Below the pieces are notes generated by a model. It was not told where the DNA came from, did not search any database, and was given only the letters and a program-made list of their open reading frames with translations. 64,000 nucleotides of DNA, taken from NCBI GenBank assembly GCA_026874595.1, contig CM049306.1, positions 82,240,142-82,304,141 on the forward strand, read 5' to 3'. Below, piece by piece: positions 3,700-63,752 of this stretch. Position 1 is the stretch's first letter; each line of letters opens with the position of its first letter. The DNA is from Sipunculus nudus. Taxonomy: Eukaryota > Annelida > Sipuncula > Golfingiida > Sipunculidae. The position numbers and the translations under genes are program-made.

Positions 3700-4265
3700 A
3701 ACCGACTCAGTAGGCAATGATAATTGAGCTGGTAAGCCTATGCTTCATACAAGCAATATTCAGGAATGCATCGCAGTTGTCTTCCATCATGTTGCATTCA
3801 TATTGTGGTTAACAGCCCATAATCTTAAGTTTATATTACGAATGATGAATTAACACAAATGAATACATGTGAACTCACAACCCAAACAGAAACCCCATCT
3901 CTATTGAATCGAGTCATTTCCTGTATAGCGTACAAATTGGCTGCTCTGAAGTAACCCATTCGAGCCAGGCTTGTATTCATGCGATCAGAAATTCAACAAA
4001 CAGGCAGAGGGGTTTTCTAATATGCTTAGTTAAAACGGAACTTTTCTCGCTCATGTTTGGTTTGTTAGAAAGTTCACAAAAATGGTAAGGATTAGTCTGG
4101 TTAATGTCAATTTAGAGTGTACTTGTAGGTCATGAGGCATTGTCAAAAATGAGGAAAATATTTATTCTTATTGGGCCTTAAAATGCGTTCCGCAGACCAA
4201 GATGTAAAGGCAGTCTGACAGCCAGTAATCTGGTCGTAATGTCAGTTGCCGATATGGCGCTATGA
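3700..4265 (+). repeat. Dispersed repeat family A, copy 1
   Basis: About 565 bases that match 13702-14265 (reverse orientation) and 56030-56575 (same orientation). Shared landmarks in order are cgactcagtaggcaat, gttgcattcatattgtgg, gaattaacacaa, ctcacaacccaaac, ggtcatttcctgtat-like text, ttgttagaaag and atctggtcgtaatg. No coding frame is shared by the copies. The ends are not obviously inverted repeats, so the class is undetermined. Confidence 0.82.
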
Positions 4266-60603: not shown

Positions 60604-60790
60604 ATGGCCGTCCTTCCTACGACGGGGGGGGGGGGGGTCGCAGGAAGAAGGCCTCTTCCTGCGACCCCCCATCCCCCCCCCCCCCCCCACGTGAACAGTT
60701 ACGCTTCAGTGCACTAGTGCAACCGGGGCTGCCACGATACCCGGTCGCACCAGTGGACTTGCTTCGTGCGACGGGGGTCTAGGATCGTGG
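60604..60790. repeat. GC-rich block with two strong hairpins and G/C runs
   Basis: Hairpin 1 has 17-bp perfect arms GGGGGGTCGCAGGAAGA (60632-60648) and its complement (60654-60670) around a 5-base loop, next to a G-run and a C-run. Hairpin 2 has arms CACTAGTGCAACCGGG (60712-60727) and CCCGGTCGCACCAGTG (60740-60755) pairing at 14 of 16. The composition contrasts sharply with the AT-rich neighbours. Confidence 0.85.
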
Positions 60791-61486: not shown

Positions 61487-61940
61487 TTAAAAATTTGGGA
61501 TTTTGCATCTATAACTACAATAATATGGCAACTCAAAATCTTTGAAGTATTTGTCTTCTATCTTTTTACAGGTTTGGTGGTACCAATCTAAACAACCATT
61601 ACACTGTACCATGTTACCAGAAGGATACTTGTAAAAACTTTCATCCATATACAACTGTCTACATACACAAAAAACTTCGACGGATTTGACTCTTTCTTCT
61701 GACTTTTTCACATTTACGTTGCTGTTGGGGAATGGGGCTAGTTTACCTTTTTCTAAACATGAGTATAAATGACTACGTAGCAAATTTTGATTAAAAGTAC
61801 AAAAACTTGGATCCAATCCGTCTGCTTAAGATTTTGCGAAGGCAATCGAAAAGAGCCCACAGTCACTGCTGCCTTCCTGTATCTGAACTGATTTAGAGAG
61901 GATAGTAAATTCTGGAGCAGATGTCTTAATGATAGCACAA
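61487..61940 (-). pseudogene. C48/ULP1-like protease C-terminus plus PHD finger segment
   Basis: Reading from about 61939, the frame gives SKSVQIQEGSSDCGLFSIAF, where Q-x(5)-DCG is the oxyanion-hole Gln and catalytic Cys signature of C48 (ULP1/SENP) proteases. A TAA at 61826-61828 interrupts. The frame then reopens with DPSFCTFNQNLLRSHL and CLEKGKLAPFP and ends in a Cys/His array. That array is CVC, then CNGC, WYHQTC and YYCSYRC, a PHD-type C4-H-C3 zinc-binding pattern of about 52 residues. PHD fingers commonly bind histone tails and could direct element targeting, which is inference. The protease's His and Asp are absent because sequence upstream is missing. Confidence 0.78.
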
Positions 61941-62095
61941 ATAAATAACCAACAGGTTTTCCCCTACCATTGTTATCTTGACATAATATTGTATATAATG
62001 GATAACCCTCTACATTTAATTTGTATGTCCCGTCTACAAAAAGGACTTCCGGATATTTATTATTGAAATCTTTCATGGGCCCTGACTGGATCAAT
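61936..62095 (-). pseudogene. MULE transposase domain, N-terminal fragment in shifted frame
   Basis: PEVLFVDGTYKLNVEGYPLY and GRGKPVGYLF match the opening of the MULE/ZSWIM3-type RNase-H-fold transposase domain, with the first catalytic Asp in FVDGTYK. It is one frame off the segments on both sides. The upstream shift falls near 62091-62100, where one extra A would explain the change. The downstream switch near 61940 coincides with the join to the protease segment. About 50 residues remain of a domain normally well over 100 long, and the other catalytic residues are gone. Confidence 0.75.
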
Positions 62096-62686
62096 TAAAA
62101 CACTCAATGTTCCTTTCTTATCAGTATCTATATGTACTTTACACTCTGAATCATTTTTGCTAATGGAAGTTATTCTATCAATTAATAATTGCTCTTTAGT
62201 TTTATCCCCTGTCGTCTGTTTTCTTTTATCTCGCCTGATGTTGTGAATATCTTGGGCCAACACAGATTTTCCAATTTTATCTTTAATAAAATTTTGTAAT
62301 TGTGTGGTCCCTACTTCATAATTAATCATGTCATTAACTAAATCTATTTGATTTGAGTTCAATTTGCGCTGATCTGGATACATATTATAAGTATTTTTAG
62401 TAATCGGATGATTATGCTGGTCCATTATTTTAGTGACTTTATACATACCTGAAGTTTTCTGAAGATTAACATTTACTGAAACTGGACAATAACAAGCCAG
62501 GTAGGACTGAGTCGGTCGAGCGCCAGTTCCCCGAGGTTTGATACTGCCAGCATGTTTACACGTGAATGTGATAGTGTTGTAAGGGTGTGACTCGACCTTC
62601 TCAGGGTTTTTCTCCGTTCTACGTTTTTTCATGGGATGAAGATTGGTGTCACACCAAGAAGTAAAACTAACATTGAAGTCAGATTA
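62093..62686 (-). pseudogene. FAR1/ZSWIM-type zinc-binding N-terminal domain segment
   Basis: Past a TAA at 62684-62686 the frame reads SDFNVSFTSWCDTNLHP and then, from the Met at 62632, KKRRTEKNPEKVE, FTCKHAGSIKP, YLACYCPVSVNVNL and MDQHNHPITK. The Cys-(n)-Cys...His-x-His layout is that of the FAR1/WRKY-GCM1-type DNA-binding zinc domain that precedes MULE transposases and is kept in ZSWIM1/3-like proteins. A helical linker (LVNDMINYEVGTTQLQNFI, IRRDKRKQ) follows. The Met at 62632 is internal, since clear domain residues precede it in frame, so it is not chosen as the gene start. Confidence 0.75.
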
Positions 62687-62777
62687 TGTACGGTATAATG
62701 CACCAACACAGAAACTGTCTGGTCCTCCATCTAGTAAATAGCTTTTTGAACCTTTTTGTGCTGCCTTGGTATTGGCT

Positions 62778-63513
62778 GATGACTGCTTTGTTAAAAGCTT
62801 AGCAGTCACATTAGTTGCTGTCCTGGTAGAACATGGTGACTGCTTTGTTAAAAGCTAAGCAGTCACATTCGTTGCGGTCCTGGTAGAACATGGTGACTGC
62901 TTTGTTAAAAGCTTAGCAATCACATTAGTTGCTGTCCTGGTAGAACATGGTGACTGCTTTGTTAAAAGTTTAGCAGTCACATTAGTTGCTGTCCTGGTAG
63001 AACATGGTGACTGCTTTGTTAAAAGCTAAGCAGTCACATTCGTTGCGGTCCTGGTAGAACATGGTGACTGCTTTGTTAAAAGCTTTGCAGTCACATTAGT
63101 TGCTGTCCTGGTAGAACATGGTGACTGCTTTGTTAAAAGCTAAGCAGTCACATTCGTTGCGGTCCTGGTAGAACATGGTGACTGCTTTGTTAAAAGCTTA
63201 GCAGTCACATTAGTTGCTGTCCTGGTAGAGCATGGTGACTGCTTTGTTAAAAGCTTAGCAGTCACATTAGTTGCTGTCCTGGTAGAGCATGGTGACTGCT
63301 TTGTCAGAAGTTTAGCGGTCACATTAGTTGCTGTCCTGGTAGAGCATGGTGACTACTTTGTTAAAAGCTTAGCAGTCACATTAGTTGCTGTCCTGGTAGA
63401 GCATGGTGACTGCTTTGTCAAAAGCTTAGCAGTCACATTCGTTGCTGTCCGGGTAGTAGCTGGTGACTGCTTTGTCAGAAGTTTAGCAGTCAGTTGTCGG
63501 GAAGGCATATCAG
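62778..63513 (-). repeat. Thirteen 57-bp units encoding a 19-residue repeat
   Basis: Unit starts on plus are near 62778, then 62834, 62891, 62948, 63005, 63062, 63119, 63176, 63233, 63290, 63347, 63404 and 63461, an exact period of 57. Read on minus, each encodes NVTAKLLTKQSPCSTRTAT, in frame with the leader and the zinc-domain segment. Units 62834, 63005 and 63119 form an identical subtype (aagctaag, attcgttgcggtcc) that turns the Lys codon into TAG. The left-most and right-most units are the most diverged. Confidence 0.95.
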
Positions 63514-63752
63514 TGAGACTGATTGCACACAGGCTTGAAACAGAGGAGTCCTTCAAAATCCTTGGTATCTGCTTGCTCACAACATGTTGGCGTTTGCTTG
63601 AAGCAAGGTACCAAGGGGCAGAGTGTCGCTTCTGTACACCGTGATCAATCTCCTGTGTAGTGGGGGTAGTTGTAGCAGGGGTTGCAGTAGTTGGAGTTGC
63701 TCCACTTGGTCCTGACCAATGTTGTTGGCGCCAACATGTAGTACTATGACCT
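63500..63752 (-). pseudogene. Leader exon of the MULE-like gene, possible splice acceptor
   Basis: A pyrimidine-poor but acceptable 3' splice site (tatgcag) ends at 63751. The main frame continues GPSGATPTTATPATTTPTTQ and then a basic stretch before the 19-residue repeats. In the next frame the first residues after the splice site read VIVLHVGANNIGQDQ, which resembles block III (GxND) of SGNH-type hydrolases, but the Asp is Asn and similarity stops at once. Either frame could be ancestral. No start codon is certain because the exon's upstream partner is not in view. Confidence 0.4.

Follow-up and report, generated by a model that had tools for sequence, protein, structure and literature searches.

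The minus strand of the window examined here, a 64,000-nucleotide stretch of the Sipunculus nudus genome (C1:82240142-82304141), carries a dead, decayed and non-autonomous internal-deletion copy of a Mutator-like element (MULE), a DNA transposon. We are confident that the intact kind of this element encodes one large transposase, in which, within the window's family, a FAR1 zinc region is followed by a DDE domain, a SWIM module, a C48 (Ulp1-type) protease and a PHD finger. The observations behind this reading are the order of the modules in one gene of the relatives, terminal inverted repeats (TIRs), 9-bp target duplications and purifying selection. The relatives are other loci (L031-L053) of the same genome, of which 1,426,538,692 bases in 153 contigs were searched; all genome match counts given below are lower bounds.

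The window copy and its relatives

Four modules lie on the minus strand of the window, from 63790 down to 61487, in the order FAR1, start of the DDE domain, C48 core and PHD finger (Table 1). Pfam gives matches for the first, second and fourth of them (FAR1, under its cut-off, and ZSWIM1-3_RNaseH-like and PHD, over theirs), and the C48 core is identified through the relatives; both this order and the death of the copy had been read correctly in a preliminary description of the sequence. The open reading frame (ORF) that holds the DDE part, 62094-61756, matches the ZSWIM1-3_RNaseH-like model at 1.5e-14 (54.5 bits, over the cut-off of 27.2) and the MULE model at 1.4e-5 (25.8 bits, under the cut-off of 27.6), with matches extending some residues beyond the deletion junction, and the same part is found by tblastn with the DDE domain of L032. 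The C48 core has lost its His and Asp/Asn part to the deletion, and its ORF alone reaches only an E value of 0.14 with Peptidase_C48, the YopJ acetyltransferase model doing better (0.0045), so that the C48 label, weak by itself in the window, rests on the relatives. The FAR1 piece has at least 35 matches in its own genome, the best other place being 87% identical, and the piece with the C48 tail and the PHD finger has at least 65, itself included, the best other showing 61% identity over 111 residues; with this many genome copies, the module matches are not due to chance.

The FAR1, C48 and PHD pieces of the window have a frame in common and the DDE piece lies in another. Compared with the relatives, the window lacks about 1.87 kb, comprising most of the DDE domain, the SWIM module and half of C48, and the loss is out of frame: window positions 61937 and 61891 correspond to positions 4084 and 5954 of L031 and to 4176 and 6045 of L034, in each case about 1.87 kb apart. 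The TGTG found at the junction is present on the DDE side in L053 and on the C48 side in L036, and L053, the copy nearest to the FAR1 part of the window, still has DDE and SWIM parts missing from the window. Most likely, the element broke internally and the middle of its gene was lost in microhomology-mediated repair. A one-nucleotide insertion and in-frame stops add to the damage, the frame from 63790 to 62060 containing six stops, the last directly after the insertion point. Because its pieces are split over frames, the window makes no fusion protein; the joined protein proposed earlier is encoded by the gene of the relatives, and the pieces of the window copy are not all in one frame.

The window's own family, lineage A, includes L031, L032, L034, L035 and L049, which are mutually about 97-98% alike over long aligned parts. 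Its elements begin with CGGCGTGCTTCGTGCGACCC... and end with ...GGGGGTCGCAGGAAGGCCTGCC, and its TIRs are imperfect and about 20 bp long. A 710-residue frame of L032 runs from a partial FAR1 match (20.1 bits, under the cut-off) through the DDE domain (ZSWIM1-3_RNaseH-like 1.7e-35 and MULE 7.6e-15, over the cut-off) to SWIM (21.3 bits, over the cut-off), and a 182-residue frame of the same copy holds C48 (19.7 bits) and PHD (21.0 bits), each just under its Pfam cut-off. In L033, a 488-residue frame combines SWIM (22.8 bits, over the cut-off) with part of C48, the latter found by tblastn with L031 (1e-96) and not listed by the Pfam C48 model for this frame; the PHD finger of L031 scores 30.5 bits. 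The overlapping open frames of L032 and L033 thus connect FAR1, DDE, SWIM, C48 and PHD within the window's family.

Lineage B provides the single frame. L040 (Table 1), flanked on both sides by the 9-bp duplication TGCTGCCCC, has a 1248-codon frame with a DDE domain, a SWIM pattern, C48 and a PHD finger. Pfam places MULE (3e-8) and PHD (1.8e-5, 25.1 bits) over their cut-offs; SWIM is recognized by its Cys/His pattern and by alignment to the SWIM module of L032, not by Pfam, and C48 (0.054, 13.8 bits against a cut-off of 20.7) is secured by the profile of the group and not by its Pfam score. L041/L052 on C17, 99.7% identical to L040 over 8.5 kb, is bounded on both sides by a duplication of its own, CCATTACCA, and keeps the region from DDE to PHD in one 1014-residue frame after an upstream frameshift; in L050, the same frame is broken by one stop inside the C48 region. 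One frame of L042 holds both C48 and PHD, each passing its Pfam cut-off, and L042 is the only copy to pass the cut-off for C48 (23.4 bits against 20.7), the scores in L031, L032, L040, L045, L046, L050 and the window lying under it. The preliminary description had envisaged an intact relative with all modules in one frame between TIRs and a 9-bp duplication: L040 and L041 are elements of this type, and the N-terminal module of L040 departs from it in being CG-1-like instead of FAR1.

The CG-1 (CAMTA) DNA-binding-like N-terminus occurs at L040:3079-3468 and L050:3172-3480, at about 20 bits and under the cut-off of 23.5; the lineage B N-terminal domain at L045:5916-6386 (-) has no CG-1 match, and a comparison of the CG-1-like domain with solved structures returned nothing (best E value 0.58).

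Inspection of the flanks by eye shows perfect 9-bp target duplications in five of seven copies, all of them different: besides L040 and L041, they are TAAATTTTA in L031, TTAAAACAT in L032 and TTTAAAATT in L049. One end could not be aligned in each of the other two (L034 and L035).

The association of the transposase with the protease and the finger is also visible across the genome. The DDE domain of L032 has at least 60 matches, forming 41 clusters, and the C48-PHD part of L040 has at least 138. On the same strand, a C48-PHD match follows in the next 8 kb downstream of 11 of the 41 DDE clusters, that of the window included, and of 0/41 on the opposite strand; the 11/41 result is unchanged whether the set of 65 matches is used alone or joined to the 138 (143 C48-PHD clusters). 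Among 20 loci of 9.9 kb, a non-random set picked because they had long open frames or matched C48-PHD strongly, tblastn places DDE upstream on the same strand in 12 and finds SWIM but no DDE in two (L033 and L049); in L037, an ORF of the FAR1 region lies directly upstream.

This evidence bears on the reading, raised in the preliminary description, that in the window a deletion fused two adjacent genes of one element, one for the transposase and the other for a protease-PHD protein. A deletion junction does lie between the DDE and C48 parts of the window, and the halves on either side of it differ in frame, but DDE to PHD form one frame in L040 and L041 and SWIM to C48 one frame in L033, which places the deletion inside one gene. 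We consider such a fusion very improbable.

Table 1. Features of the window copy and position of the L040 element
Feature	Position	Strand	Remarks
Putative right terminus of the element	60606..60623	-	GTCGTAGGAAGGACGGCC (family: ...GGTCGCAGGAAGGCCTGCC); by eye
ORF with C48 C-terminal end, then PHD finger	61487..61825	-	at least 65 own-genome matches
PHD finger	61514..61669	-	Cys4-His-Cys3 zinc pattern; Pfam PHD E 3.3e-6, 27.5 bits (over cut-off 24); residues 53-104 of ORF 61825-61490
In-frame TAA between C48 core and PHD ORF	61826..61828	-	open codon there in L036
C48 (Ulp1-type) active-site core	61829..61939	-	ORF 61963-61829; QEGSSDCGLF, catalytic Gln and Cys kept
Deletion junction	61936..61939	-	TGTG, 4-nt microhomology common to both sides; frame shifts here
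First part of MULE/ZSWIM-type DDE (RNase H-like) domain	61936..62094	-	with first catalytic Asp (FVDGTYKLN)
FAR1/ZSWIM3-type zinc DNA-binding region	62063..62683	-	Pfam FAR1 E 2.2e-5, 25.5 bits (under cut-off 28.1)
One-nucleotide insertion	62093..62094	-	relative to L034 and L053; breaks FAR1-DDE frame
57-bp minisatellite, 12.5 copies	62780..63492	-	19-residue Ser/Thr-rich repeat in FAR1 frame, in-frame stops
N-terminal coding remnant	63493..63750	-	starts after AG with VIVLHVGANNIG; possibly SGNH-hydrolase exon (weak)
L040 element	C14:61530746-61539738		8993 bp; TIR 285 bp, 280 identities

Several other arrangements were encountered around these matches. Six C48-PHD matches at C15:63411619-63430509 (+) recur regularly, about every 3.7 kb, in an apparent tandem array, and three of equal score lie about 6.2 kb apart at C11:13929964-13943152 (+). 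An ORF at L047:2959-3837 (-) resembles, by eye, a retroelement integrase and is apparently unrelated to the MULE. A collection of viral contigs gave six pattern matches, none of them encoding a relative.

Selection, alternatives and possible mechanism

The C48 profile of the relatives matches 6ups (2.7e-5), OtDUB, an Ulp1-like SUMO protease and SENP8, and its alignment brings His, Asp, Gln and Cys into register with the Ulp1-like SUMO protease and SENP8. The ratio of non-synonymous to synonymous substitution rates (dN/dS), estimated by the NG86 method, is 0.12 for C48 between L033 and L031 (181 codons), 0.17 and 0.21 for the C48 tail with the PHD finger between L033 and L032 (113 codons) and between the window and L032 (110 codons), 0.14 for the PHD finger alone between the window and L032 (62 codons) and 0.26 for SWIM and the region following it between L033 and L032 (293 codons), all rough values, since dS in these pairs is 0.8-1.5. 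The ratios of 0.12-0.21 on C48 and PHD indicate purifying selection.

This makes it hard to regard C48 and PHD as unused passengers captured from the host in the manner of Pack-MULEs, even if MULEs do acquire fragments of host genes, as sections of PMC6446971 and PMC8277862 describe. The order of the modules is the same in very diverged lineages (L032 and L040 share 22% identity over the transposase part and keep the C48-PHD order) and dN/dS on C48 and PHD is 0.12-0.21, and the passenger explanation accordingly has little chance of being right. Least credible is a pseudogene of a ZSWIM/FAR1-like host gene that arose by domestication of a MULE; this would suit the ZSWIM1-3 RNase H-like model as the best Pfam match of the window's DDE part but not copies scattered over many contigs, terminal repeats, 9-bp duplications and near-identical recent copies (L040 and L041, 99.7%).

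A number of observations, together with the roughness of the dN/dS values, weigh against an internally deleted copy of a single-gene MULE as the explanation of the window. For the window copy itself, nothing convincing as a left TIR was found within 1.16 kb past the window, and with no left end, its target duplication could not be read. Among the lineage A copies read, none is open throughout, and these copies have Asn at the place of the catalytic Asp (LYNS in L031-L034), so the protease of the window's family may be weak or changed. Six other pairs are saturated at silent sites, including FAR1, L040/L050 DDE-SWIM, L040/L042, L040/L050 and NADAR, and no Pfam PHD match lies near L050. As for linkage, 30 of the 41 DDE clusters, among them the close ones at C1:52.55M and C17:8.74M, lack a C48-PHD match in the 8 kb downstream of them; many of the unlinked clusters are distant (26-34% identity) and may belong to other MULE families or to host genes. 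Finally, tblastn gave no DDE or SWIM match at six of the 20 fetched loci (L037, L038, L039, L043, L046 and L047).

In the large transposase that we favour, the zinc modules would bind the ends of the element and the DDE domain would cut and join in a cut-and-paste manner. The PHD finger of L040 matches structures of PHF2 (5.8e-7), ASH1L, ING1 and BPTF, several of whose PHD fingers read H3K4 methylation; that of the transposase may dock the complex on the histone H3 tail, perhaps on H3K4-methylated chromatin, in which case open sites would be favoured. The C48 protease could free proteins at the element or at the target of their SUMO or ubiquitin, and this deconjugation might loosen silencing or aid repair.

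SGNH and NADAR modules carried by relatives

When four short predicted exons that lie upstream of it, with GT-AG borders and compatible phases, are joined to the big frame of L040, a predicted protein of 1492 residues results, the first 222 joined residues of which match Lipase_GDSL_2 (1.9e-9, 38.7 bits, over the cut-off of 32.9); an SGNH-hydrolase domain is thus predicted to be spliced to the N-terminus of the L040 transposase. L031 and L035 likewise have pieces related to the SGNH exons ahead of their transposase, those of L031 remaining under the Pfam SGNH cut-off (0.015 at best), and a piece of L046 resembling the first exon has no Pfam match. The score of the putative SGNH exon in the window was reached by 33 of 2000 shuffles, and Pfam SGNH has no match in this N-terminal remnant.

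Within the TIRs of L040 lies a second gene (L040:7162-8265, +, 368 codons) that matches NADAR (1.4e-30) and GDSL (6e-8). A gene combining NADAR and SGNH-hydrolase also occurs at L046:7574-8227, and three NADAR matches stand about 11 kb apart at C8:6157258-6179641 (-). The NADAR gene has 113 genome matches in 95 clusters. On the same strand, one of these matches lies in the 10 kb downstream of four of the 143 C48-PHD clusters and of three of the 41 DDE clusters, and of none on the opposite strand; by these low counts, the majority of the NADAR or SGNH matches have no detectable transposase part close by.

An SGNH domain on a MULE transposase and a NADAR-SGNH gene within MULE TIRs are apparently undescribed: no link of SGNH or NADAR with MULEs appears in the titles or abstract openings of the papers listed from the literature searched, outside which lie most subscription journals and Repbase Reports. 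SGNH has been reported in another kind of mobile element, a Helitron having captured an SGNH gene in platyfish (excerpts of PMC4021074), and the role of NADAR in animals is described as unclear (passages of PMC11125620).

Taken together, the modules allow a speculative proposal, which we regard as possible though unlikely, of a counter-silencing transposon. Its protein would cut DNA, read histone marks and strip SUMO or ubiquitin, with an esterase-type SGNH domain at the N-terminus, and the NADAR-SGNH product would remove ADP-ribose from DNA guanines, thereby protecting the element, or intermediates of its excision, against an ADP-ribosylating host defence. If true, this would be an animal transposon with a gene for DNA de-ADP-ribosylation. 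Transposon silencing in animals runs via SUMO and histone marks, and a transposase bearing a protease and a PHD finger therefore makes counter-silencing directly testable.

Comparison with known systems

Compared by description only, the ULP1-carrying MULEs of plants share with the present elements the combination of a MULE with an ULP1 protease and differ in having plant hosts; we know of no PHD finger in them. They are represented by the elements of van Leeuwen 2007 and Hoen 2006, as cited in PMC2836005, and also by Kaonashi, as far as the excerpts of these sources go; C48 is likewise noted in Cryptons in the portions of the literature seen.

Rehavkus elements (Dupeyron et al. 2019, PMC6446971, in part), compared by description only, resemble the present family in their 9-bp duplications, in a PHD finger in the transposase and in a minisatellite, which is listed as C-terminal in Rehavkus and lies at the N-terminal side in the copy of the window. 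The main text of that paper, to the extent available, contains no mention of C48, Ulp, peptidase or protease, its two mentions of PHD concerning Rehavkus, and PHD, Ulp, protease and SWIM are absent from the main text of a 2026 paper on arthropod MULEs.

The closest precedents are in Bao et al. 2010 (PMC2836005). Ginger1-9_HM, in the portion of its Table 1 seen, shares a transposase with C-terminal Ulp1 and PHD, and differs by a Gypsy-integrase-like DDE domain and 4-bp CCGG-type duplications from the MULE-type DDE domain and 9-bp duplications found here. In the sections consulted, the same paper reports Ulp1 in Mutator (MuDR) transposons of hydra and lancelet, animal Mutator transposases with an Ulp1 (C48) protease like those described here; the legend of its Figure 1e has the Ulp1 and PHD of Ginger1 and Mutator transposases aligned, the PHD boxed, and the comparison with the present elements is by description only, following this wording for Mutator transposases in general. 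It further suggests that Ulp1 and OTU act in transposition, perhaps via DNA repair. By these statements, the core combination of MULE, Ulp1 and PHD is not new, and the idea of such an animal element, raised in the preliminary description, was already pointed to there. NADAR and SGNH, present in the relatives described here, have 0 occurrences in Bao et al. 2010; these modules add activities without a connection to MULEs in the literature listings searched. To the hydra and lancelet elements, the present ones add a further animal genome in which, with target duplications and measured selection, a transposase carries, in one chain, a histone-reader-like finger and a protease of the SUMO/ubiquitin type.

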